In this document: piece by piece, positions 22,002 to 61,733 of the stretch
Position numbering within the stretch: position 1 is the first letter of the stretch
How the letters are laid out: each line of letters begins with the position of its first letter
NCBI RefSeq assembly: GCF_013364155.1
Contig: NZ_CP054916.1
Span: forward strand, 3,654,501 to 3,718,500
Source: Streptomyces sp. NA02950
GTDB taxonomy: Bacteria; Actinomycetota; Actinomycetes; Streptomycetales; Streptomycetaceae
Reading direction: 5' to 3'
Length of the DNA: 64,000 bases
The notes under the pieces: model-generated
Seen by the model: only the letters and a program-made list of their open reading frames with translations
What the model was told of the DNA's origin: nothing
Database searches by the model: none
Program-made: the position numbers and the translations under genes

Positions 22002-22074
22002 GCCTCCGTAGCTCAGGGGATAGAGCACCGCTCTCCTAAAGCGGGTGTCGCAGGTTCGAATCCTGCCGGGGGCA
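22002..22074 (+). tRNA. tRNA-Arg(CCT)
   Basis: The cloverleaf is complete. The acceptor GCCTCCG pairs with CGGGGGC, the D-stem is GCTC/GAGC, the anticodon stem CCGCT/AGCGG encloses CTCCTAA giving anticodon CCT (AGG codon), and the T-arm is GCAGG TTCGAAT CCTGC. The discriminator is A and CCA is not encoded. Its 3' half from the anticodon loop onward is the attachment core of both integrative elements. Confidence 0.95.
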
Positions 22075-22076
22075 CA
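22033..22076 (+). repeat. att core copy 1 (attL, in tRNA-Arg)
   Basis: A 44-base sequence from the anticodon loop (CTCCTAAAGC) through the T-arm to CACA. It is identical at 33921-33964 and 61372-61415. This copy carries the intact tRNA 5' half. Confidence 0.95.
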
Positions 22077-33295: not shown

Positions 33296-33920
33296 CCGCC
33301 CCACGGGCCCCGGCTTAGGCTGGGGCCCGACCCCTTCACCGACCGCGTGGGCAGGCACAAGGCCCCATCGGCTGGGCGGCCTGCAAGCCGCCAGATGGGG
33401 GATCGGCGACGACAGATGACGACCACTAACGACAGGTGTCCCGATCGGCGGGCAAGCAGTTGAAACCGCACCTGCGAGGGGGTAGCACAGCGGCATCGCT
33501 GAGCGGCTTACATGGCACGAGCGTGGCCGTCTGCGGCCATAGCCGTTGTGCTGTCGAGACAGGCTGGCGGCGGAAGGGGCGGTATCCGGGCCAGGCGACG
33601 CCGCCAGGCAGAAAGGCCGGCTGGGGCCGAGCGCCGTACCGCCGCCGTCACGGATACCGGAGCGTGAGCGGACCGCCGCCGAGGGGATGGGCTGATGGGG
33701 AGCAGCTGCTACCGCGAGGTGGCTCAGCCCGTCGTGGGCGCTCCGCTAGGTGCACCCCCGTTGGACCACAGCGTTCGGCTTTCCGACCGCGTGGGCCGTG
33801 CCACTCTCGTGCCAGAACGGTCGGGGACTCACGGGGAACCGTGGCGCGAAGCGGTGCACACGACGAGGCTCCGCTAAAGATAGGGAAACCGCAGGTAAGA
33901 CCCATGATCGCCCAACCTCG
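33296..33920. other. 625-base non-coding segment before att copy 2
   Basis: Open frames here have no ribosome sites or recognisable products. CGGTATCCG (33580-33588) and CGGATACCG (33651-33659) form a 9-bp inverted repeat that could be an integrase arm site or RNA stem. The segment abuts the right att core of element 1, where arm-type sites are expected. Confidence 0.4.
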
Positions 33921-33964
33921 CTCCTAAAGCGGGTGTCGCAGGTTCGAATCCTGCCGGGGGCACA
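33921..33964 (+). repeat. att core copy 2 (junction of elements 1 and 2)
   Basis: It is identical over 44 bases to the tRNA-Arg 3' half at 22033-22076. It lacks the tRNA 5' half, so it is not a gene. It serves as right end of element 1 and left end of element 2. Confidence 0.95.
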
Positions 33965-33980
33965 GCAAAACACCAGGTCA

Positions 33981-34513: not shown

Positions 34514-34669
34514 TCACGCGGCGTCTTCCTCCAGGGCGGCCACTGTCTCGGCGGCCTCACGGGCCTTCCGCTCCGCCTTCTCCAGCTTGGCCTTCGCCTT
34601 GGCCAATTGCTTGGAGCGGCGCTTGTGCATCTTCTTCGAGACCTCGTCCAGGCGGTCGGGAAAGAGGTG
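34514..34669 (-). pseudogene. severed C-terminus of the element-2 integrase
   Basis: The frame reads HLFPDRLDEVSKKMHKRRSK then QLAKAKAKLEKAERKAREAAETVAALEEDAA and stop. DTYGHLFPDRLDEV is the standard tail of actinobacterial tyrosine integrases, and the integrase at 39138-40319 stops matching exactly at its DTYG. Joining 39237 to 34669 restores the frame with no missing base. The 4567 bases between them are therefore an insertion. The fragment has no promoter or start of its own. Confidence 0.85.
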
Positions 34670-34736
34670 TAATGGTGACGTCGGGTATTGGAAGTGTCCG
34701 AATGCCCCTTGAGCCGGCCGTTCGCTGCCGGGGACA

Positions 34737-35198
34737 TCACGATTGGCAGGCTCGGATCAGCGACGCGAGGACAGTGCCCGGGTCGTGCAGGGGACGGGCG
34801 CCGTCGGTGACGACTTGGCGTGTGCCAGCATCCACCGGGTCCGTCTGTGCCCAGTCGGGAGACCCGATGTTGATCTCGACCTCCAGCCCTGACGCTGTAG
34901 CAAAGCGTCGTTCGCTGATCGGTCCCCACGACTGGGTTCTGACCAGTTTGCCGAGGGCGAGCTCGTCGGCCCATGCATTGTCGGAGTACTGGGACTCGTC
35001 TGTCGTGAGAAGGACGAGGTCGATGTCGGAGTCAGGCCGTGCGGCATTGCGAGCGCACGATCCAACAAGTAGGAGACCGACGACGTCGTGGCGGCCTGCG
35101 GCCCACCGCGTGACGCGGTCGATGATCTCTTTCGTTTCGGCAGCCCGTTCCGGTGAGATCGCAGGTCGCTGACTCGCTGGCTGGTTGTCACGGTGCAT
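34737..35198 (-). CDS. nucleotidyltransferase (MNT-like) carried by the nested element
   Basis: 153 residues. VVGLLLVGSCARNAARPDSDIDLVLLTTD is the pol-beta-type nucleotidyltransferase signature GSxAR...DSDIDL, and LEVEINIGSPDW supplies the third acidic residue. That is the full catalytic set of minimal nucleotidyltransferases, which can AMPylate a toxin, tRNA or a partner protein. Its start overlaps the zinc-ribbon gene's stop by 11 bases, so it is translated as the last gene of the recombinase operon. No HEPN partner is next to it, unlike MntA-HepT pairs. It may act as addiction, defence or regulator cargo. Confidence 0.75.
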   Translation of the reverse strand: MHRDNQPASQRPAISPERAAETKEIIDRVTRWAAGRHDVVGLLLVGSCARNAARPDSDIDLVLLTTDESQYSDNAWADELALGKLVRTQSWGPISERRFATASGLEVEINIGSPDWAQTDPVDAGTRQVVTDGARPLHDPGTVLASLIRACQS

Positions 35199-37614
35199 CG
35201 TGCTGCCTCCCGGGTGAGTAGCGGTGGCTGACTTCCGCGGCGTAGTTGGCCCAGTCGCCCGCGGAGAGACGTTGCCAGGTGACGGCGACGTCGGTGTGGA
35301 TGCCCAGGGTGCGGGCGAGGATCGCGGCGGGGATCTCGGTGGCGAGCTGGAAGAGCGCGGTGCTGCGGGCCTGGTTGGGGCGGATGTCGAGGTTGTTCAG
35401 CCGCTGGGTCAGCTGTCTGGTGCTGATCGGGCGTCCGGGCTGGCCGCCGGGGAAGAGCCAGGGGGATGGGGCCAGGGCACCGATGGTCGCGTGGCCCTTG
35501 CGGTTCGCGGCGACGGTGCGAGCCAGTTCGGCGACGGGCTCGGGCAGATGGACGGGTGCATTGCCGAGGTGGAGGCGTACTTCCTGGGCGCTGATCTCGA
35601 CATCCTCGGTGGTCAACCGGTGGATGGCCGACGGCCCTTGGGCGTAAAGGAGGAGAAGCAGCCCGGCGAGGCGGTCTTCGGGCTTGAGGGTGCGGTCGTG
35701 CAGGAGCCGGCGTGCGACATTCCAGCGGTGTTCGTCGTCGAGTGGCTGGGTGGGGCCGTTCCAGCGGACGGCGGGGATGTGGGCGGTGGTGAGCTTGTTG
35801 GTGCGGGCCCAGCGGATGAAGTGCCCGGCCACGTGACGGTAGGTGGCGGAGTCGTCGGTGAGCCACCGGTCGAGGTCGGCCTGTCGGCAGATTTCCAGGG
35901 TGAGGTCGTGGGCTGTGAGCCAGTTCAGGAAGGCGACGGCCGCGTGGGTGCGTTGACGTGCGGAGTTGAACTGCTGCGGGGTGAGGGGGCGGCCGTTGTT
36001 GCGTCGACGGAGTCGCCGGACCAGGTGCCAGATCGCGTACCGATGCAGGATTTTGCGGTGCTCGGGGTTCGGCTGGGACGCGAGGAGGCCAGTGAGGAAG
36101 CGTTCAAGACGGACCATGTACTCGTCGCGCTCGGGCAGGGCGCCGACACCAACGAGGACTTGGCGGAGGTGGGCGAGGGGCGGGCTGTCAGGCAGCTCAT
36201 CGAGTGCCTCGTGCGTCAGGGCTCGCCGGCCGGCCGCGAGGTCGGACAGGACCGGGGAGACGGACGGCTTGTTCAGCCAGCGTCTGGCGGTGATGGGGTG
36301 CTCGGCGGTGGCGATGTTGTGCCGGAGGGCTTCGAGGGCGGGGTGGAGGGCATCGGACGGAGGGCCCAGCAGCTCGTTGAGGCGCCGGTTGATGAGGCAG
36401 CGGGCGCACTGGCCGGGGTGCGGGTAATGGGGGTCGGTGCAGGTGGGGCAGGTGTGCCAGACCTCAGGGGCAGTGCAGTCCGCGCAAAGGGGCTGGTCGA
36501 GGGTGCCGGAGGCGACCGCCGCGACGTTCCCGCAGGCCGAGCACGGTGCTGAGCGGTGCTGGCAGGCTGGGCACCACGGTCGGCCCGTGGTGCGGGAGGT
36601 GCCGCAGGGCTTGTCCTCGCAGCAGATGCTGCAGGTCATGACTGGTAAGGAAGGACAGCTCTGACAGAGCGGGCCGTCCGGCGTGCGGGTGTTCACGACC
36701 TTGCGTCGGCCGCAGTTGATGCAGGTCTCCAGGTTCGCCGGGGCGTTGACGAGGCAGTTCGGACACAGTGGTCGACCGTGGTCGTCGCGGGTGGCCGGCT
36801 CCCGGCGGGCTCCGCAACCTGAGCACTCCTCGATGCGGGAGTGGGCGATGCAGGTGCGGCAGACCCGCTGCCCGCCGAGGGGCTTGTCGATGCGTACGAC
36901 TCTGTGACAGCCGGGGCAGGACGGCCGGACGATCCCGGCGACGCCGGCCGCGTGCAGCAGGTCGATCAGCCGGAGGATCGCGCGGTGGGGTGCGAGGTGG
37001 CCGTCCCCGGTCAGCAGGGCGGGGTTGGCTTCCAGGGCCCAGGCGAGTTTCTGGTGGTAGGAGGGGCGGGGTGCCGACCGGAGGACCGCGTCGGCGATTA
37101 TTTCCCGCCCTGCCCGCGGGTCCAGTTCGGCGATCAGGGCGCCGATCACCCCGAGGGGATCGCGTCCGTCGGAGTCCGGGCACTTTGCGCATCGCGGTCG
37201 CCCGGCCCGGTCCCGCGTAGCGACCCGGCGGGTGATTCCGCAGGCAGCACAGGACTCGGGTTGCGGTCCGCAGTTCCCGCAGTACCAGTCCTGACCGCGG
37301 CGCTGGAGGGTTCGCATCTGTCTGCCGCACTCGGCGCAACACGGCGGCGAGACGGCCTGGGCTCCGGCCTCACGCAGGGCGATGAGCAGGTCGCCTGCCG
37401 CCCTGGGTGCCGGAGAGCGTCCGTCGCTCAGCACGCTGGGATGCTCGGCCAGATGCGCCGCGAGGCGGCGTGACTTCGCGCGGCCGCCCGCGACGCCAGT
37501 GACCACGGCGCGGATCCGGTCGGGCTTCAGTCGGTGTTCGACGGCCGCGACCAGGTCCACGATCATCCCGATCGGATCGGAGACGGCCCGCTCGGGGTGC
37601 CCGGGTGCGGTCAC
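35188..37614 (-). CDS. zinc-ribbon-rich protein with degenerate recombinase domain
   Basis: 808 residues. Residues about 90-410 hold at least seven CxxC-type knuckles (CCAECG, CGNCG, CAACG, CPGCH, CSGCG, CPNC, CINCG, CSICC, CSACG, CPTC). Residues about 480-800 have a tyrosine-recombinase-like plan (GVGALPERDEYMVRLERFLTGLL, then LNWLTAHDLTLEICRQADLDRWL, then LLLLLYAQGPSAIHRL, then ATEIPAAILARTLGIHTDVA) but lack the catalytic Arg, the HxxR and the Tyr. It likely binds DNA ends for the active recombinase. GTG 37614 overlaps the HTH gene by four bases. Confidence 0.75.
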   Translation of the reverse strand: MTAPGHPERAVSDPIGMIVDLVAAVEHRLKPDRIRAVVTGVAGGRAKSRRLAAHLAEHPSVLSDGRSPAPRAAGDLLIALREAGAQAVSPPCCAECGRQMRTLQRRGQDWYCGNCGPQPESCAACGITRRVATRDRAGRPRCAKCPDSDGRDPLGVIGALIAELDPRAGREIIADAVLRSAPRPSYHQKLAWALEANPALLTGDGHLAPHRAILRLIDLLHAAGVAGIVRPSCPGCHRVVRIDKPLGGQRVCRTCIAHSRIEECSGCGARREPATRDDHGRPLCPNCLVNAPANLETCINCGRRKVVNTRTPDGPLCQSCPSLPVMTCSICCEDKPCGTSRTTGRPWCPACQHRSAPCSACGNVAAVASGTLDQPLCADCTAPEVWHTCPTCTDPHYPHPGQCARCLINRRLNELLGPPSDALHPALEALRHNIATAEHPITARRWLNKPSVSPVLSDLAAGRRALTHEALDELPDSPPLAHLRQVLVGVGALPERDEYMVRLERFLTGLLASQPNPEHRKILHRYAIWHLVRRLRRRNNGRPLTPQQFNSARQRTHAAVAFLNWLTAHDLTLEICRQADLDRWLTDDSATYRHVAGHFIRWARTNKLTTAHIPAVRWNGPTQPLDDEHRWNVARRLLHDRTLKPEDRLAGLLLLLYAQGPSAIHRLTTEDVEISAQEVRLHLGNAPVHLPEPVAELARTVAANRKGHATIGALAPSPWLFPGGQPGRPISTRQLTQRLNNLDIRPNQARSTALFQLATEIPAAILARTLGIHTDVAVTWQRLSAGDWANYAAEVSHRYSPGRQHDAP

Positions 37615-37952
37615 GGCCGCTCGACACCGCGGATGCGGGCCCGCTTGGGCCGCAGGTCACCGACACCGGTCTCGGCGCCAACGGCCTTCTTGGTCCGGGT
37701 GGTTGATCCGGCACCGGCTGTGGCCACGGGCTCGATGAGGTCGTCCATGGTGCAGTCGAGGATGTCGAGCAGGGCCATGAGGATCTTCAGGCTGAGCCGT
37801 TCGGGGCGCTCGACGACGAGCCGGTAGACCTGGCTGGACGACAGGGTGATGTCGCGTTCGTCCAGCAGTGGGATGAGGTCGGTGGTGGAGAAGAGCCCGC
37901 GGTCGGCCATGACCTTGCGCAGGTGCCATTGGTAATCGAGCTTGGCGGCCAT
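37611..37952 (-). CDS. small helix-turn-helix protein of the nested element
   Basis: 113 residues. KVMADRGLFSTTDLIPLLDERDITLSSSQVYRLVVERPERLSLKILMALLDILDCTMDDLIEP is a Cro/C1-like helix-turn-helix of the YozG type; the C-terminal 40 residues are basic. The ATG overlaps the recombinase stop by one base. As the second gene of the four-gene operon it may regulate the operon or help assemble the recombination complex. Confidence 0.8.
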   Translation of the reverse strand: MAAKLDYQWHLRKVMADRGLFSTTDLIPLLDERDITLSSSQVYRLVVERPERLSLKILMALLDILDCTMDDLIEPVATAGAGSTTRTKKAVGAETGVGDLRPKRARIRGVERP

Positions 37953-39073
37953 CAGCGGTCCTTGTCTGCGGAGGTCGGGGCGAGCACGGGAGCAAGTGCC
38001 TTGTGGAGCATGGTGTTCATGAAATCGTCGCTGACGTGCGTGTAGATGGCGGTGGAGCTGTCATTCTCGTGACCGACTTGCTGCTGCAGAAACCGCCGGT
38101 CAACCCCGTCCTCCGTGAGGTGGGTGACGTAGGCGTGGCGAGCGGAGTGGACGGTCAGCTCCTTCGGGAGCTTCAGGGCGTCGCGGTAGGCGACGAACCG
38201 GGCGTTGATCTCCGCCGGCTTGACCCGGCCGCCCCGCTCGGTCACCCACAACGCGGGGTGGTCCTCGCAACCGAACCGCGGCCGTACGTTCTCCACATAG
38301 TCGGCGACCGCCTCCACCGCCCAGTCCATCACCGACAGCACGTTCCGGCGCCGCGGCGGCTGCCCCTTCTTCGCCTTGCCGTAGCGGACGTTGAGCGTGC
38401 CGTACCGGCCGAACTGCGGAGCCTTCGGGTTCCGCCCGAAGTCGACCACATCCAGCTTCGACGTTTCGGTCCGGCGCAGTCCCCACCCGTAGATGACCTT
38501 GAAGAGAGTGGCGTCGCGGTAGGCGGCGAGGGCGCCCTTGCGCTTGGCCCGAATCGCCCGTTCGACCTGGTCGTCGGCGTAGTCGAGGAACCGCTGGATC
38601 TCCTCGCGGGTGAACGGCCTCGCCTCGGGGCGGCCCTCGTAGTCGTTCAGGTGGGCGATGGTGTTCCACTCATGGCATATGGCCACCGGGTGGGTGCCGA
38701 AGGCGTCCTCGCAGGCCACCGCCCAGCCGTAACGGCCGTCGATCAGGAACTCGCTGAACAGGCGCAGGCCGCCCTGATAACTGCGGATCGTGGACGGCGC
38801 GAGGTGCTTCTCGCTGGTCAGCCACAGTGACCACTCGTCCACGTGACCGGGCGTCCAGACCCACGGGTATTCGTTGGTGTACTCCAGAAACCGGCGTATG
38901 AGCCGTTCCCGGGCGGTGACCGTGTCCTCGCGCAGCCCGCGGGCGGCCTGCTGGGCCCGCCAGCCCCGCAGCATCGCCTCGACCATCGCGTCCTGCGGAC
39001 GCAACTGGACGACGCCGGAGACCAGCTCCAGATGAGCCGCCCCAGCCAGGTCGGCACGTCGCTGAAGACCCAC
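37952..39073 (-). CDS. active-type tyrosine recombinase of the nested element
   Basis: 373 residues with all catalytic residues: Arg200 (GWGLRRTE), His309 and Arg312 (HSARHAYVTHL), His335 (GHENDSS) and Tyr344 (IYTHV). The N-terminus DAMVEAMLRGWRAQQAARGLREDTVTARERLIRRFLEYTNEYPWVWTPGHVDEW is a long SAM-like core-binding domain, unlike phage integrases with an arm-binding domain. GTG 39073 follows GGAAGGGAGGG. It is first in the operon and 163 bases from the element's right end, and is the presumed transposition enzyme. Confidence 0.85.
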   Translation of the reverse strand: MGLQRRADLAGAAHLELVSGVVQLRPQDAMVEAMLRGWRAQQAARGLREDTVTARERLIRRFLEYTNEYPWVWTPGHVDEWSLWLTSEKHLAPSTIRSYQGGLRLFSEFLIDGRYGWAVACEDAFGTHPVAICHEWNTIAHLNDYEGRPEARPFTREEIQRFLDYADDQVERAIRAKRKGALAAYRDATLFKVIYGWGLRRTETSKLDVVDFGRNPKAPQFGRYGTLNVRYGKAKKGQPPRRRNVLSVMDWAVEAVADYVENVRPRFGCEDHPALWVTERGGRVKPAEINARFVAYRDALKLPKELTVHSARHAYVTHLTEDGVDRRFLQQQVGHENDSSTAIYTHVSDDFMNTMLHKALAPVLAPTSADKDR

Positions 39074-39137
39074 TTCCGCCCTCCCTTCCGGAGGGCAAAT
39101 CCTGCATCAGATGGGATCTGATCGCCAAACCCCCAGC

Positions 39138-40319
39138 TCAGACCGCCAAGCTGTAGGAGGATGAAGCCCTCACCGGACGCCGTCCTGACCTCGCGACCTG
39201 CGGTTTCTCGCCCGTCTGATGCAATTCCCGAGGGTTCCCGTAGGTGTCCAGGGTCAGCGTCGCGGACTTGTGGCCCAGCATCGTCTGTACGACGTTGACG
39301 TCCGCGCCGCTGGCGATGGCGAGCGAGGCCGCCGTGTGGCGCAGCTTGTGCGGGGTGACCTTGAGATGCCCCAGCCCGGCCTTTACGACCGCCGGCGCAA
39401 AGAACCGCTGACGGAAGTTCCGGGCCCGGAGCGGCCCGCCCTGCGGGGCGGTGAAGAGCAAGTCGTCATCTCCTCTCCCCGTGACGTGGGGCTTCAGCTC
39501 GTCGGCCAGGAACCGCGAGATTGGTACGGACCGGCGCTCGTGGTTCTTGGGGGTGTCGAGGTAGAGCTTGCCGTTGTCCTCGGCGTACGCCTCCACGATG
39601 TGGGCCCGACAGGCGTCCAGGTCGACGCGGCCCACCTTGAGCGCGGATGCCTCGCCCCAGCGCAGTCCGGTGTAGGCCAGCAGCAGGATGAACACCCGGT
39701 AGGCGCCTGACGCGTTAGCAAGCGCGTCGACCTGCATGTCGTCGAGGTACACGTGATCAGCGGGCATCGCCTTCGGCAGAGGCACGCCGACAGCCGGGTT
39801 GGCCGCCAGACGACGGGCCTTGACCGCGTAGCCGAGAACGCGGCTGAGGACGACGTACGCCTTGCGGGCCGACCGGGGGCTGAGCTTCCTGCCGCCGGTC
39901 GCCTCGCCGGACAGCAGATCCGCGAGCCACTCGGCGATGTCCTCGAAGTGGATGCGGTCCAGCGGGGTGGTGCCCCACTTGGGGATCACGTGGACGTCGA
40001 GAACACCGCGGTAGCGAGCCCGGGTTGAGCGCTTGAGGTGGAGCTGCGCCGCCAGCCAGGACTCCGCCACCTCTGCGAACTTCACCCGCGCGGATGCGGG
40101 ATCGCGATAGGAGCCGTCGTTGAGACGCGACTCCATCCTTGTCCGCTCCGCCTCGGCGTCGACCTTGCGGGCGAAGGTCTTCATCTTCGGCTTGCCGTCG
40201 GGGTCGTACCAGCGCACGCGGTAGCGCCCCGGTGGCGTACGCCCCGCCCGCTTGGCGTCCGCCACGGCCCGTGCATACGCCGCGTGCCCTATGCGGTCCT
40301 CAATCCAGACCCGCGCCAA
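39138..40319 (-). pseudogene. int: element-2 tyrosine integrase, C-terminus replaced by insertion
   Basis: Residues 1-361 are a normal integrase: arm-binding N-terminus (RYRVRWYDPDGKPKMKTFARKVDAEAE), Arg220 (TGLRWGEA), His324 and Arg327 (HKLRHTA), His350 (GHKS), Tyr360 (LDTYG). Residues 362-393 are read from the nested element and do not belong. The lost tail survives at 34514-34669. All catalytic residues remain, so partial activity is possible, but the C-terminal tail that packs in trans is gone. TTG 40319 follows the XRE stop directly. Confidence 0.85.
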
Positions 40320-52756: not shown

Positions 52757-52934
52757 CCGTTGCATTAGTGGATCGAGCGGTCAACAGCGCCCGAACACCC
52801 GGCGAGTAATCCCACTTCAATGACGTCGCCACTACTCCAGTGGTAAACGGTGCGACTGGGGACTAACGAGCGGTGCTCTCGCCGGTTGACAGTAAAGGGC
52901 GTCAGCCCTGGGCGGCAACTGCAGCCTGGCTACC

Positions 52935-54468
52935 GGTAGTTCGTTAAATCCGGCGGTAGAGGTCAATGCCGTGTCCGGTGGTGACCGCGTCGATCAGGGC
53001 CTGGAGCTCTGAGGGTGGGTCTGTGTCCGTCCAGGCTCGCCACCACCGGGTGAGGGTGATGGCGGGGGTGAGCCAGGACCGGATGGCCCGTAAGGCCCTG
53101 GGCCAGCAGGGCTGTTGGGGCTGGTGGGGTTCGGTTGATCCCCCTCTCTGGCCCGTCGTCGGGGCATGGGTCCGGCGCGGTGGCATCCAGGGGTCCCGGT
53201 GGGGCGAACCACTGGTCCCAGCAGAAGGAGAAGGCGCAGTTGACCAGGGTCTGGTGGCGGCGGATGGCGCGGTCGGAGCGGACTTGGAAGTCGGCCCAGC
53301 CGAGTTCGTCCTTGATCTGTTTGTAGCTCTGCTCGATCCAGGGCCGCAGTCCGTAGAGGTGGACGATCTCGGCGAGGCCCGCCGGCGGGTGCGGGCCGGT
53401 GGCAGCGTGGGGTGTGTCGGGGTGGGGCAGGCTGGTGGCCAGGTACCAGGTGGCCTTCTCCGGCAGGCTGCCCGGATCGGTGGTGGCCACGACCAGCCGG
53501 CAGGGAGAGTCGGGGCCGTAGCCGCCCAGGCGGGCATCAGCCGCCCACCAGGTCTCGGTGTGCCCGTCACGGAAGTGACGTTCCACGGGCATCCAGTCGC
53601 CTGGATGCCTGGCATCGCGCCAGGCCAGTGAGTGTGCGGCTTCGATGGGGGTGTGCGGCTGGTCGGCCGGAGCCCAGGTGCCGCGGTGCGGCTTGAGCGC
53701 GACCACGTAGGCCAGGCCGGCCTCGCGCAGTGCGAGGTACCAGTCGTCGCTGACCGAGTAGGCGCAGTCGGCGACCACCGCCCGGCAGCCGAAGCCGGCC
53801 TCCTTCCCTCGGGCCGCGAGGGCAGCGGCCAGCTGTGGTTTCGTGCGGAAGTCCGGGTCGGAGCGGCTGCGGGTGAAGTGGTGGGCGGGGGTGTAGGGAG
53901 CCGCGTGCAGCGGGTAGTACACACGGCCGTCGGTCCACACCGTGGTCACCGTGACGATGCCGTTGTCCGTCTTGCCGTACCGGCCCAGCCACTGTCGGCC
54001 CACGTGCGCGGTGGCCGTGCCGTCCTTACGGTCCCCGGAATCGTCGATCACGATGACCCCGCCGTCGTGCGGAGCCGTCGCCGACTGCTCACGCAGCAGC
54101 TCAAGCCGCCGGTCGTTGACCTGCTCGGCCTCCCAAGGGGACTCGGACAGGAAGAACTGCAGCCGCTGCACCCCCGCCGTCCCCGCACCCGCCACCGGCT
54201 CCGCCCCTGCCAGGCATGTGATCGTCTTGTTCCGCTCCCGTGGTGCCAGCAGTCCCGTCAGGTACTCGCGAAACCCCCGCCGCTGAGCCAGACTGAAGAA
54301 GAGGTCGTCGAACCGCGCCGCATAGTCCTCCAACGGCCCCGGCGCAGGCGGACACGGACGGCGAGCGGTCATCTTCAGCCCCCAGCCAGGTAGTTGACTC
54401 CTACCACCGGCCTACGACCAACCCGGCCTGCCGTCAACCCGCACCACCGCCGGATTTAACGAACTACC
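52935..54468 (-). mobile_element. IS701-family element, copy A
   Basis: A 1534-bp element with perfect 23-bp terminal inverted repeats beginning GGTAGTTCGTTAAATCCGGC. It is identical in inverted orientation to copy B (55640-57173). No clear target duplication is seen. The two copies are only 6 bases apart if the IS630 and its TA duplication are removed. Confidence 0.9.
52963..54372 (-). CDS. IS701-family transposase, copy A
   Basis: 469 residues. FFSLAQRRGFREYLTGLLAPRERNKTITCLAG is the IS701 N-terminal signature. VIVIDDSGDRKDG, VVADCAYSVSDDWY and GLRPWIEQSYKQIKDELGWADF hold the DDE triad, the last with the conserved IE...KxxLGWxDFQVR block. It is identical at residue level to copy B. The last 60 residues are proline/histidine-rich. 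Confidence 0.9.
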   Translation of the reverse strand: MTARRPCPPAPGPLEDYAARFDDLFFSLAQRRGFREYLTGLLAPRERNKTITCLAGAEPVAGAGTAGVQRLQFFLSESPWEAEQVNDRRLELLREQSATAPHDGGVIVIDDSGDRKDGTATAHVGRQWLGRYGKTDNGIVTVTTVWTDGRVYYPLHAAPYTPAHHFTRSRSDPDFRTKPQLAAALAARGKEAGFGCRAVVADCAYSVSDDWYLALREAGLAYVVALKPHRGTWAPADQPHTPIEAAHSLAWRDARHPGDWMPVERHFRDGHTETWWAADARLGGYGPDSPCRLVVATTDPGSLPEKATWYLATSLPHPDTPHAATGPHPPAGLAEIVHLYGLRPWIEQSYKQIKDELGWADFQVRSDRAIRRHQTLVNCAFSFCWDQWFAPPGPLDATAPDPCPDDGPERGINRTPPAPTALLAQGLTGHPVLAHPRHHPHPVVASLDGHRPTLRAPGPDRRGHHRTRH

Positions 54469-54518
54469 GTTACTGAGGTTGAACTCGTGGTGTCGTAGGG
54501 GCTGACGGCTCGTCGTCT

Positions 54519-55603: not shown

Positions 55604-55639
55604 GCACCCCAGCGACATCACGAGTTCAACCTCAGTAGC

Positions 55640-57173
55640 GGTAGTTCGTTAAATCCGGCGGTGGTGCGGGTTGACGGCAGGCCGGGTTGGTCGTAGGCCG
55701 GTGGTAGGAGTCAACTACCTGGCTGGGGGCTGAAGATGACCGCTCGCCGTCCGTGTCCGCCTGCGCCGGGGCCGTTGGAGGACTATGCGGCGCGGTTCGA
55801 CGACCTCTTCTTCAGTCTGGCTCAGCGGCGGGGGTTTCGCGAGTACCTGACGGGACTGCTGGCACCACGGGAGCGGAACAAGACGATCACATGCCTGGCA
55901 GGGGCGGAGCCGGTGGCGGGTGCGGGGACGGCGGGGGTGCAGCGGCTGCAGTTCTTCCTGTCCGAGTCCCCTTGGGAGGCCGAGCAGGTCAACGACCGGC
56001 GGCTTGAGCTGCTGCGTGAGCAGTCGGCGACGGCTCCGCACGACGGCGGGGTCATCGTGATCGACGATTCCGGGGACCGTAAGGACGGCACGGCCACCGC
56101 GCACGTGGGCCGACAGTGGCTGGGCCGGTACGGCAAGACGGACAACGGCATCGTCACGGTGACCACGGTGTGGACCGACGGCCGTGTGTACTACCCGCTG
56201 CACGCGGCTCCCTACACCCCCGCCCACCACTTCACCCGCAGCCGCTCCGACCCGGACTTCCGCACGAAACCACAGCTGGCCGCTGCCCTCGCGGCCCGAG
56301 GGAAGGAGGCCGGCTTCGGCTGCCGGGCGGTGGTCGCCGACTGCGCCTACTCGGTCAGCGACGACTGGTACCTCGCACTGCGCGAGGCCGGCCTGGCCTA
56401 CGTGGTCGCGCTCAAGCCGCACCGCGGCACCTGGGCTCCGGCCGACCAGCCGCACACCCCCATCGAAGCCGCACACTCACTGGCCTGGCGCGATGCCAGG
56501 CATCCAGGCGACTGGATGCCCGTGGAACGTCACTTCCGTGACGGGCACACCGAGACCTGGTGGGCGGCTGATGCCCGCCTGGGCGGCTACGGCCCCGACT
56601 CTCCCTGCCGGCTGGTCGTGGCCACCACCGATCCGGGCAGCCTGCCGGAGAAGGCCACCTGGTACCTGGCCACCAGCCTGCCCCACCCCGACACACCCCA
56701 CGCTGCCACCGGCCCGCACCCGCCGGCGGGCCTCGCCGAGATCGTCCACCTCTACGGACTGCGGCCCTGGATCGAGCAGAGCTACAAACAGATCAAGGAC
56801 GAACTCGGCTGGGCCGACTTCCAAGTCCGCTCCGACCGCGCCATCCGCCGCCACCAGACCCTGGTCAACTGCGCCTTCTCCTTCTGCTGGGACCAGTGGT
56901 TCGCCCCACCGGGACCCCTGGATGCCACCGCGCCGGACCCATGCCCCGACGACGGGCCAGAGAGGGGGATCAACCGAACCCCACCAGCCCCAACAGCCCT
57001 GCTGGCCCAGGGCCTTACGGGCCATCCGGTCCTGGCTCACCCCCGCCATCACCCTCACCCGGTGGTGGCGAGCCTGGACGGACACAGACCCACCCTCAGA
57101 GCTCCAGGCCCTGATCGACGCGGTCACCACCGGACACGGCATTGACCTCTACCGCCGGATTTAACGAACTACC
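55640..57173 (+). mobile_element. IS701-family element, copy B
   Basis: 1534 bp, the mirror image of copy A including the 23-bp ends. Its right end cuts the last codons of the DnaA-like gene: minus-strand sequence reads ELTQSIT then enters the IS repeat. Confidence 0.9.
55736..57145 (+). CDS. IS701-family transposase, copy B
   Basis: 469 residues, identical to copy A. Same DDE boxes (VIDDSGD, VADCAYS, WIEQSYKQIKDELGW). Identity of protein and flanking bases implies very recent duplication or ongoing gene conversion between the inverted copies. Confidence 0.9.
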   Translation: MTARRPCPPAPGPLEDYAARFDDLFFSLAQRRGFREYLTGLLAPRERNKTITCLAGAEPVAGAGTAGVQRLQFFLSESPWEAEQVNDRRLELLREQSATAPHDGGVIVIDDSGDRKDGTATAHVGRQWLGRYGKTDNGIVTVTTVWTDGRVYYPLHAAPYTPAHHFTRSRSDPDFRTKPQLAAALAARGKEAGFGCRAVVADCAYSVSDDWYLALREAGLAYVVALKPHRGTWAPADQPHTPIEAAHSLAWRDARHPGDWMPVERHFRDGHTETWWAADARLGGYGPDSPCRLVVATTDPGSLPEKATWYLATSLPHPDTPHAATGPHPPAGLAEIVHLYGLRPWIEQSYKQIKDELGWADFQVRSDRAIRRHQTLVNCAFSFCWDQWFAPPGPLDATAPDPCPDDGPERGINRTPPAPTALLAQGLTGHPVLAHPRHHPHPVVASLDGHRPTLRAPGPDRRGHHRTRH

Positions 57174-59006
57174 GGTAATGCTCTGTGTCAGCTCGGTGAC
57201 CTGCTCGTAGACGGTGCCCTGCTGTTTCATGAGCTCGCGGATCCTCCGCTGAGCTCGGTCCACTGCTGTCCGTTCTCGGCCGTCGAACAGGGAGCCGATC
57301 TCGGTAGCGGAATGCGACGTCAGCTCGCGGCATAGATACATTGCCATCTGCCGCGCGACCGTGGCCACTCGTCCGCCATCGCGCCCACGTAGAAGCTCAT
57401 CCGCGACTCCGAAATAGTCACCTGTAAGCTCGATAACAAGGTCACCCGTGACAGCACCCTGCGGATCTGATACAGCAACCCCCGAAAACATGTCACTGAG
57501 AACTGAATTCGTTAGCTCGATATCCACCTCCCGCCGATTAAGAGCAGCGAACGCGGCCACCCTAAGCACAGCACCCTCCAGTTCGCGGATGCTTCGCCGA
57601 ATTCGAGCAGCGATGAATTCCAAGACCTCGACTGGCGCATTCAGCTGCTCCCGCATCGCCTTCTTGCGCAGGATCGCGATCCGCGTCTCCAGCTCCGGCG
57701 GCTTAATGTCGGTGACCAGACCCCACTCGAAACGTTTTCTCAACCGCTCATCCACCGTCAGCAACTGCTTGGGCGGCCGATCACTGGACAGGACAATCTG
57801 CTTGTTCGCATTGTGTAGCGTGTTGAACGTGTGGAAAAACTCCTCCTGCGTCACCTCCTTGTCCGACAGGAACTGAACGTCGTCCACGAGTAGGATATCG
57901 ACGTCGCGATACCGATTACGGAAGGCGTCAGTCTTGCCATCACGAATTGAGTTGATGAACTCATTAGTGAACTCCTCCGAGCTCACACATTGAACTTTCA
58001 CCCCTGGGTACAGGCTGCGAGCATAGTTCCCGATTCCGTGAAGCAAATGTGTCTTACCGATACCCGACTCGCCATAAATAAACAGGGGGTTATACGCCTT
58101 CGCCGGCGCTTCGGCGGCAGCAACGGCGGCCGCATGCGCAAAGTGATTTGAGGCGCCGACGACGAACGTCTCAAATAGATACTTCGAGTTCAGTCGCGGG
58201 TTTGAGACTGGGGCGTGCCTCGACGTAGACACACGGTTTTCAAAGTACTCTCCGCCTACCTTCTGTAGCAGGGTTTCTTCAGCGGACACTGCCTCATCCT
58301 CTACTTGGCCCTGTCGCGCCTCGCCACGTTCAGGCGTGTCTGTCCGCTCCGTCAGATTGTCGATTGCGTCCAGCTGCCGTTCCAGCACCTCGCATCTCGC
58401 CTCGGCACGGAGTCGCAGAGTGTGTGCCTCCCTCAGCTCTTCTTCGAGGATCTCTACCTGCGCTAGAAGCTCAGCCCGTTCGTCCCGCAGATCACCGAGT
58501 TGGTCTTCGTGTAGCTGCAGAGCGCTCCGCGTCTCGGAACGATCCCGGTCGTGATCGGCATGAAGTTGTCCGATCTGCACCTCAAGATCAGCAGCACGGT
58601 GTTGCGCGTCGAGCAACGCATCGGTGAGCGCACGCTCGCGGACGGCCGAACGCCTGACCTCTCTGTCAGCGTCAGCAAGCTGATCTTCCAGTAACTGCAG
58701 CTTCTGCGCTGTGGATCCGCTCACAGCCAGCGCCTTGCGATGCAGTTGACGCAACAGTTCCATCGCCTCAGGCGTCGGGGCAGCTCCCTGTTCCTCCGCG
58801 ACATCGTGCATCAAGTCGCTGACGAACTCCCAAGGTGGTATCCGCGTCCGGTTGAGGTATCGGGAGACAGACCCTGCGTCTCTGTGCCGACGCGCCGCAT
58901 AGCGACGAACGCTAACCCTCAGACCATCGAACATGCTTCTCAAGGCTTTGGCGAGCGCACGCGAATCATCCGGCAGTTGCCTTACCAGCGGCTCAAGACT
59001 CGTCAC
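57174..59006 (-). CDS. chimeric DnaA-like initiator with HTH and coiled-coil N-terminus
   Basis: Residues 1-75 (LVRQLPDDSRALAKALRSMFDGLRVSVRRYAARRHRDAGSVSRYLNRTRIPPWEFVSDLMHDV) are an HTH-like domain seen in Streptomyces regulators. Residues 90-235 are a long coiled coil. Residues 270-500 are a DnaA AAA+ domain (FIYGESGIGKTHLLHGIGNY, DILLVDDVQFL, FEWGLVTDIKPPELETRIAIL), followed by a DnaA domain IV (AMYLCRELTSHSATEIGSLFDGRERTAVDRAQRRI). The box-recognition motif is DGRERTAV rather than GGRDHTTV, so DNA specificity should differ. GTG 59006 follows GGGAGGG. The 3' end is cut by IS701 copy B; the original stop is probably TGA at 52904-52902. Confidence 0.8.
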
Positions 59007-61173: not shown

Positions 61174-61371
61174 TTGGAAAGTGGTGAGGCGTGTCGCGAA
61201 AATGGTTGACGGCACGCCTAACCATGAGGGTGAAACGCGTGAGCGATGCGTGAGCGCACTGCCGCGGACAGGCCATCCAGCACCGGACAGAGCGCCATGC
61301 CGTGTGACGCTGATCAGTAAGAACAGCACCACGCGGCACAGCCAGGCCCCCCGGGAAAGGATCCAATCCCA

Positions 61372-61415
61372 CTCCTAAAGCGGGTGTCGCAGGTTCGAAT
61401 CCTGCCGGGGGCACA
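61372..61415 (+). repeat. att core copy 3 (attR of element 2)
   Basis: A third exact 44-base copy of the tRNA-Arg 3' half. The sequence beyond it should be the original chromosomal flank of the tRNA gene. Confidence 0.95.
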
Positions 61416-61733
61416 GTGTCTGACCAGGCACGGAGCTTCAAACAGCCCCTCGGAGTGATCTCCGAGGGGGCTGCTTTCGTGTGTGCGGGGACGTAACGCT
61501 AGGCGACATCCTGGTTACGGGGTTTTCTACCGACCCCACGGGGGCGTCGGCGGCCTCCTGCTCGAACTGGGGCATCAGCGAGGTGTAGGTGTCCGTGTGG
61601 CTCGCGATCACCCCAACCGGAGAAGTGACCGCTCACCTCGCGGCGGGAAGTACCTCCAAGGTCACCTGGATCAGTCTGGATGGCGCCGCCTGCCGTCTGG
61701 ACGCACCCGACGAGGTTGACTGAGTCGAGCCCG
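61416..61733. terminator. tRNA-Arg native 3' flank with terminator; no gene
   Basis: CAGCCCCTCGGAG (61443-61455) pairs with CTCCGAGGGGGCTG (61460-61473) with one bulge, followed by CTTTCG. This is the terminator that would follow tRNA-Arg in an element-free chromosome. The remainder up to 61733 shows no supportable gene. Confidence 0.7.

Follow-up and report, generated by a model that had tools for sequence, protein, structure and literature searches.

A tyrosine-recombinase element in Streptomyces that very probably homes to the active-site codons of other tyrosine recombinases

The 64,000-nucleotide (nt) stretch of the Streptomyces sp. NA02950 genome analysed here, called the window, whose numbering is used for all coordinates, holds a 4567-bp mobile element inside an integrase gene. 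We find that this element belongs to a family, present in Streptomyces and related bacteria, of what are very probably tyrosine-recombinase transposons that home to the DNA encoding the active site of other tyrosine recombinases: comparison of insertion sites points again and again to the codon of the catalytic tyrosine. The element lies on the minus strand, with the following parts and flanks:

34670..39236, minus strand: whole element, 4567 bp, delimited by breakpoints against related loci and by empty sites in relatives
39237..40319, minus strand: 5' part of the interrupted integrase gene, 361 codons up to DTYG, with a PF00589 match, joined to the tail in relatives
34514..34669, minus strand: 3' part of the integrase gene, 51 codons plus stop, recognised from the sequence and joined to the 5' part in relatives
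39213..39236, minus strand: left end, conserved AACYCTCRGGAATTGCATCWGAYG, from a genus-wide pattern search
34670..34706, minus strand: right end, ~37 conserved bp closing in CACCATTA, matched by blastn in 14 of 17 GTDB loci
37952..39073, minus strand: tyrosine recombinase, 373 amino acids (aa), PF00589 at E 1.1e-19, with GLRRTE, HSARH and AIYTH motifs found by eye
37611..37952, minus strand: small helix-turn-helix (HTH) protein, 113 aa, PF13443 HTH_26 at E 8.5e-15
35188..37614, minus strand: 808-aa zinc protein with an inactive tyrosine-recombinase domain, the proposed target selector

The original prediction had the integrase run to DTYG (base 39237) and resume in frame at base 34669. This is borne out by the sequence, where the tail HLFPDRLDEV... 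restarts at 34669 and the stop codon occupies 34514-34516, and by uninterrupted relatives (L050-L056). Its companion claim, that the DNA in between is a discrete insertion with exact ends, is upheld by breakpoints in related loci and by base-exact empty sites. Our search of GTDB species gave 17 loci that encode a relative of the 808-aa protein, several of them truncated; where their ends are readable, alignments with the window break at the two ends of its element, 39236 on the left and 34670 on the right. The blastn pieces of the window begin at 39236 in L007, L008 and L012 and stop at 34670 in 7 of the 17 loci, with similarity extending the matches by a few bases elsewhere. The contigs of these three loci themselves border on the element: L008 and L012 start at the left end and L007 one base earlier, while L007 and L008 finish at the right end and L012 three bases later, a pattern expected of collapsed repeats. 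The left-end pattern has 25 matches in 17 of 199 genus genomes, the element's own included, against none for a reversed-pattern control. Element genes are present at 22 of the 25; L079 and L092, at contig ends, have the end and tail in common with L088, and L081 lacks an element gene. At the other side, the terminal six bases CCATTA recur at 37 of 46 right ends. The host genome (9.77 Mb, two contigs) has one copy of the element and just two other matches, of 36% over 250 residues and 37% over 91.

Inverted sequences at the ends, TCGGGAATTG and TCGGGTATTG, are present as first noted, and are modest evidence for element ends by themselves: they match at 10 of 15 positions around a 6-bp spacer, and the best arrangement, with 11 of 15, is equalled in 27 of 1000 shuffles. 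Another inverted pair, TTGCATCAGA (element nt 12-21) and TCTGATGCA (~126-135), was seen by eye ahead of the recombinase start, with ~105 bp between its two members, and may represent arm sites or operators.

Empty sites, which had been proposed as a check, were sought with the integrase 5' part in 150 genus genomes, of which 63 matched at E<=0.001; eight loci were examined. In seven of them (L050-L056, from seven genomes) both flanks lie in one stretch as an uninterrupted integrase, and the segment 34514-34669 is the tail of that integrase; its belonging to another gene would have refuted the original prediction. The flank matches abut in L050 (99/97% identity), L051 (98/98%) and L052 (91/89%), and are one base apart in L053-L056 owing to a difference in the final left-flank base; in L057 the left flank alone matched. 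Other recombinase genes are interrupted by the plasmid copies of Streptomyces sp. NBC_01591 (L028) and S. coelicoflavus (L030), and intact versions of these genes occur in NZ_CP108532, NZ_CP109560 and NZ_CP108139, giving empty sites for three host genes altogether. Insertion is base-exact throughout, with the target neither duplicated nor lost and no extra bases. In these comparisons the element is a discrete unit with exact ends and precise, duplication-free insertion.

We read the left flanks of the GTDB loci, of plasmid loci, of one IMG/VR locus and of the 25 left-end matches, counting once L069 (=L004), L076 (=L013), L077 (=window) and the short L070-L093 loci extended as L094-L110, and leaving out L081 (a chance match) and L088 (a contig end). 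The recombinase-hitting clades have 38 distinct sites, 36 of them in tyrosine-recombinase genes, and at 34 of these 36 the cut falls 3 bp past the Tyr codon at the catalytic place, the preference that the DTYG interruption had first suggested. In a Pfam scan of left-flank proteins from 36 of the 38 sites (window and L011 left out; E limits 0.01 and 0.1), 31 matched PF00589, 27 above the Pfam cut-off. In 30 of these 31 the alignment breaks off at profile position 165-167 of 172, and in L029 at 140. The host genes are diverse, comprising island-type integrases, recombinases beside DUF6262 genes and recombinases of the element's own cousins, the last exemplified by L095 and L109, with a 49-50% identical recombinase upstream and HTH and zinc-protein relatives downstream. 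The sequences compared show repeated insertion into very different recombinase genes, usually 3 bp past the catalytic-place Tyr codon. Movement has also been recent inside single genomes: three integrases of G089 each contain a copy, all alike without a difference over 4959 bp, and G157 holds three copies that are 99.9% alike. The right end of the G089 copies is constant although their left flanks differ, which shows that no 6-bp footprint travels with the element. Viral contigs contained no exact left-end match and one relative by protein (L036), and the phage records searched gave no match.

The recombinase genes of mobile elements are non-essential, so insertions in them are tolerated, and one could suppose that the element inserts loosely and that the surviving copies are those retained in dispensable genes. 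Retention cannot, however, fix the cut at the same codon of unrelated genes, and identical copies within one genome all lie at the Tyr codon. The fixed cut position already contradicts retention as the only cause, and we regard this explanation as highly improbable.

More distant relatives enter other genes. In the sister clade (L094, L103, L110) insertion also falls 3 bp past a TAC; the L110 host is a 2H-phosphoesterase-like gene (PF13563 above cut-off), and the L094 host matches below the cut-off. HxSLAY-like motifs were seen at the insertion point of L094 and L110, and the L103 host is without an assigned class. In the most distant clade (L027, L033, L079, L092) the host is a gene for a small membrane-type protein, entered at a DR(R/G)...(LLW) motif; a Pfam scan of the L027 and L079 host proteins gave no match.

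The sequence features that the sites have in common lie on one side of the cut:

39237..39277, minus strand: target stretch, ~41 bp, from position counts over 21 left flanks

The constraints are a T at -41, AC at -35/-34, AC at -18/-17 and TAC at -6 to -4. Among the 21 left flanks counted, all of which are cut 3 bp past TAY, TA at -6/-5 occurs in 21, C at -4 in 19, A at -18 and C at -17 in 20 each, C at -34 in 18 and T at -41 in 17; the 28 right flanks have no base constrained like the left-side TA and AC. By these counts the target information lies in ~41 bp upstream of the cut, and part of the left-flank constraint is conservation of the recombinase family itself. TAC or TAT at -6 to -4 is found at 39 of 41 sites of the recombinase- and phosphoesterase-hitting clades, as compared with 0.8% of window positions. 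The site in an IS3-type transposase gene (L023), a gene of another fold, scores 19.4 bits on a model built from 20 other sites, L011 included, a score reached by 2 of ~128,000 window positions, one of which should be the window's own training-set target. Because this gene, which fits the DNA pattern, was also entered, the target is probably read as DNA rather than as protein. With each site held out, a single position model ranks most close copies at the top of the window and fails in part: the scores of L024, L038 and L040 are negative, and 5 to 19 window positions outscore L030, L031 and L043. One model for all targets was rejected on this scoring, and the poor fit led us to split the sites by zinc-protein group.

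Within the zinc protein, two parts were located:

36397..37338, minus strand: Cys-rich, presumably zinc-binding region, residues ~93-406, with invariant Cys columns C93...C406
35275..35277, minus strand: codon of W780, at the catalytic-Tyr place in an alignment of 80 sequences

Its Cys-rich region gives weak matches to GATA and LIM zinc-domain profiles (best E 0.021). The catalytic-Tyr place, assigned by eye from the LG...Y motif, holds Trp in 79 of the 80 aligned sequences and a gap in one, and R750 is kept in all 80; the recombinase domain had been described as dead, and it appears so across the family. A shorter and more distant relative of 505 aa, zinc/recombinase-like, is encoded together with an HTH gene on a Pseudarthrobacter plasmid (L111, 3101-4943), directly downstream of a DUF6262 trio.

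We grouped the elements by zinc-protein identity to that of the window: group I at 69-100%, group II at 59-62% and group III at 47-48%. The His codon of the target's LGH lies at codon -12 in 17 of 17 members of group I and 0 of 9 of group II, and at codon -11 in 9/9 of group II and 4/4 of group III (Fisher, group I against II, 3.2e-7). L017 was placed on just 92 zinc-protein residues (76%). Kept out of this test were L031 and L040 (zinc protein 51%; His at -11), L025 and L041 (cut 7 bp past the Tyr codon), L023 (IS3-type; no His), L011 (His at -12), L074 and L101, whose placing had drawn on the target sequence, and the clades that enter other genes. After similar 45-mers were collapsed, 13, 8 and 4 targets remained in groups I, II and III, 50-54% alike on average. 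Judged on midpoint-rooted trees, target class appears to follow the zinc protein better than the recombinase. In the L110 element, with its 2H-phosphoesterase-like host, identity to the window's proteins is 75% for the recombinase and 39% for the zinc protein, and in the recombinase-hitting L040 it is 76% and 51%; the other-gene copies (zinc protein 38-41%) have recombinases 75-79% identical to the window's, and in the most distant copies, with the membrane-protein-like host, the zinc protein is at 34-35% and the recombinase at 57-58%.

These values bear on the possibility that a short core (TAC plus 3 bp), recognised by the 373-aa recombinase alone, decides the target, with the zinc protein in another role, for example accessory or structural binding at the ends. 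TA is the most constrained feature, and TAC plus 3 bp is kept even in copies that enter other genes (L094, L103, L110), whence the recombinase may fix that part. Against a choice by the recombinase alone, a core as short as TAY, at 0.8% of positions, is far too common to place 36 of 38 sites in recombinase genes, the constraint extends back to -41, and recombinases 75-83% alike serve different target classes while the matching zinc proteins differ strongly. We therefore consider this account unlikely, and favour homing to active-site DNA with the zinc protein as selector.

In the mechanism we propose, the 808-aa protein would use its zinc fingers and dead recombinase domain to bind the ~40-bp target, recognising there the DNA that codes L-G-H ... 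T ... Y, and would bring to this target a circular form held by the 373-aa recombinase. This recombinase, predicted to be complete and active-looking on its profile match and motifs, is the sole candidate for strand exchange in the element and would exchange strands 3 bp beyond TAC, with the HTH protein probably assisting or regulating. Since the catalytic tyrosine is indispensable, the DNA encoding it offers a target from which other mobile elements could not readily escape by mutation, and a homing address in the catalytic-site codons of competitors would be a clear DNA-level conflict between mobile elements. The family also explains one class of broken integrase genes on the islands and plasmids of Streptomyces, and annotators should be aware that a missing integrase tail may lie several kb away. 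Its matched set of zinc-protein groups, His-Tyr spacings and base-exact empty sites allows one to ask how a recombinase-derived selector reads DNA.

The nearest known organisation is that of the Tsy transposons (ZooTsy; Faure et al. 2023, PMC10293859). Tsy elements have the same order of a tyrosine recombinase (YRec), a small HTH protein and the zinc-finger, recombinase-fold protein TnsF, followed by accessory or cargo genes, and they too insert in DNA that codes a conserved catalytic motif, entering comM at Walker B (PMC10293859). There, TnsF binds the target, whose attachment site is found in the 40 bp that precede the insertion point (PMC10293859), similar to the one-sided target found here by conservation. 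The two differ in their targets (comM Walker B there; recombinase active-site codons, an IS3-type transposase and others here), in their hosts, in the selector, whose catalytic activity is essential in Tsy and which has Trp at the Tyr place here, and in the ends, described for Tsy as lacking inverted repeats or a canonical form and here bearing short, imperfect inverted sequences (PMC10293859). The main text of the Tsy paper contains 'integrase' and 'actinobacteri' zero times each and 'streptomyces' once (PMC10293859). The element had been called undescribed-looking, which does not hold for its gene order, published in 2023 as Tsy. Since organisation and one-sided 40-bp target agree while target, selector and hosts differ, we call the family a variant that would work like Tsy, a likeness drawn from organisation and published description. 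If Tsy were defined by architecture alone, the element would be a Tsy with new addresses. The comparison also makes it possible to ask why selector catalysis is needed in Tsy and apparently lost here. In a literature search of limited depth we found no description of an element that targets integrase genes.

A number of observations weigh against homing to active-site codons by a zinc-protein selector. Four of the hosts counted as tyrosine-recombinase genes (L020, L038, L101, L102) owe that assignment to R and H...Y motifs picked out by eye, as PF00589 gave no match; among them, L020 matches an integrase N-domain, and L101 and L102 have partial tblastn matches. The L023 host is not a tyrosine-recombinase gene, its right flank matching PF13683/PF13333 of IS3-type transposases, and that of L011 could not be assigned to a class. 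The Rhodococcus copies L025 and L041 cut 7 bp, not 3 bp, past the Tyr codon, and in L013, L017, L028 and L030 two adjoining Tyr codons leave the catalytic one ambiguous, the cut falling 3 bp past the second in three cases and past the first in L030. Distant clades (L027, L033, L034, L079, L092) lack TAC/TAT, which brings that rule to 39 of 46 sites overall. With TnsF catalysis essential in Tsy and Trp in place of Tyr here, the chemistry must differ. The selector role, finally, is a correlation between partly congruent recombinase and zinc-protein trees, and the groups are small and made of related members, for which reason the Fisher value overstates independence.

Tn7 inserts outside glmS and spares that gene, whereas the element described here cuts its host gene. 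The two are alike in reading DNA that codes a conserved catalytic site (PMC10293859). Tn7 relatives of the Tn6022 type also have a selector that combines zinc fingers with an inactive recombinase domain, and differ in being Tn7-like transposons, whereas a tyrosine recombinase is the one candidate for strand exchange here (PMC10293859). Tn554 and RIT, named as comparisons in the original prediction, are less close in organisation than Tsy. Tn554 and its actinobacterial relatives likewise combine one short and one long recombinase-like protein and lack target duplication, and the relatives share actinobacterial hosts with the element (Van Houdt et al. 2012, PMC3414803). In contrast to the element, both of their recombinases are catalytic and the third gene is TnpC/DUF6262 rather than an HTH_26 protein (PMC3414803), and a 6-bp footprint moves from the donor left flank to the new right flank (PMC10214605). 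Recombinase genes adjacent to DUF6262 genes are instead among the element's targets. Plasmid 1 of Arthrobacter FB24 (NC_008537), a single record taken from six Famint36/41 records and compared with no positive control, contained nothing that matched the 808-aa protein and, for the recombinase, just a match of 31% over 79 aa. SEs, GInts and RITs are also multi-gene recombinase operons of small islands, and SEs and GInts share target specificity (PMC10214605, PMC5385486). SEs differ by two RHRY recombinases, a 6-bp footprint and the order intA/tfp/intB/srap (PMC10214605), the second recombinase-like protein of the element having no Tyr. RITs have three adjacent recombinases with catalytic Tyr, as against one active-looking recombinase, one HTH protein and one inactive protein here, and GInts combine three putative integrases with a helix-loop-helix protein (PMC5385486, PMC10214605). 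Membership in Tn554 or RIT was rejected on catalytic residues, third gene and footprint.

Beyond the selector gene lies a further gene of the element:

34737..35198, minus strand: nucleotidyltransferase-like protein, 153 aa, cargo, PF01909 at E 1.6e-6

The genes of the element overlap by 1, 4 and 11 bases, as first described, and had been taken as a four-gene unit. We rejected that unit, as the cargo varies among copies: from the sequences compared, the core is three genes plus a cargo slot, and the nucleotidyltransferase is optional cargo, found in 1 of the 17 GTDB loci (L016), several of the 17 being truncated. Among 36 elements with both ends known, 34 have recombinase, HTH and zinc genes together, each at least 85% complete, and the core genes are not routinely found apart; L043 lacks recombinase and HTH, and L097 has a partial recombinase. 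Other loci with the predicted gene order accordingly exist for these three genes, with other cargo or none in place of the nucleotidyltransferase. Elements range from 4048 to 6326 bp, and the slot, from zinc-gene stop to right end, from 11 to 2294 bp. Elsewhere it holds HAD hydrolase, SDR, GNAT, nitrilase-like, IspF-like or MFS/MerR genes, or none, identified from record labels or from reading of translations. Cargo seems to have been exchanged between elements, because cargo judged alike by eye sits on distant backbones: nitrilase-like genes on L005 and L038 (zinc proteins 88% and 47% identical to the window's), SDR genes on L104 and L096 (86% and 47%) and GNAT genes on L003 and L024 (88% and 60%). 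The cargo of L108, which by eye resembles IspF (2-C-methyl-erythritol cyclodiphosphate synthase), would be a gene of housekeeping type.

The variable slot also speaks to the idea of a defence or toxin-antitoxin island made up of all four genes, with the nucleotidyltransferase as antitoxin, that simply landed in an integrase. The nucleotidyltransferase does match PADLOC candidate defence models (best E 1.3e-7), with MntA-like and ANT-like (aminoglycoside nucleotidyltransferase) matches weak and under their cut-offs. Yet no partner toxin adjoins it, and its place is taken elsewhere by GNAT, SDR, HAD, nitrilase-like or MFS genes or by none; we give such an island next to no credence.

Insertion furnishes the interrupted integrase with a replacement C-terminus:

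39138..39236, minus strand: element-supplied tail of the interrupted integrase, 32 codons plus stop, open in 18 of 18 Streptomyces-type copies

This frame has no early stop in any of the 18 copies, while stops interrupt frame 1 in 11 of them and frame 2 in 3; in the more distant L023, L036 and L042 the tail stops after 15 codons. Differences by codon position, over all pairs of the 18 copies, are 0.26/0.22/0.22. Without codon periodicity there is no sign of protein-level selection, and the tail as a selected protein part was rejected. Still, each insertion would leave a rival integrase its catalytic tyrosine and a new, element-supplied tail, and such an integrase could stay active under the newcomer's influence. 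We raise tentatively, as something we rather doubt, that the family preys on mobile elements by design, with a selector tuned in each sub-family to active-site codon spacing and the tail-swapped integrase captured rather than destroyed.

The surroundings are probably those of genomic islands. A tRNA-Arg(CCT) gene lies at 22002-22075, and its 3' end is repeated at 33912-33965 and 61363-61416, making three direct copies that are 89-100% alike over 54 nt. This repetition makes two tandem tRNA-targeted islands of ~11.9 and 27.5 kb probable, and the interrupted integrase gene belongs to the second. Elsewhere in the window, repeats at 52922-52957, 54446-54475, 55627-55662 and 57151-57180 form two pairs of complementary sequence (ACCGCCGGATTTAACGAACTACCG) with a spacing of 2705 bp, and resemble two ~1.5-kb insertion sequences with inverted ends.

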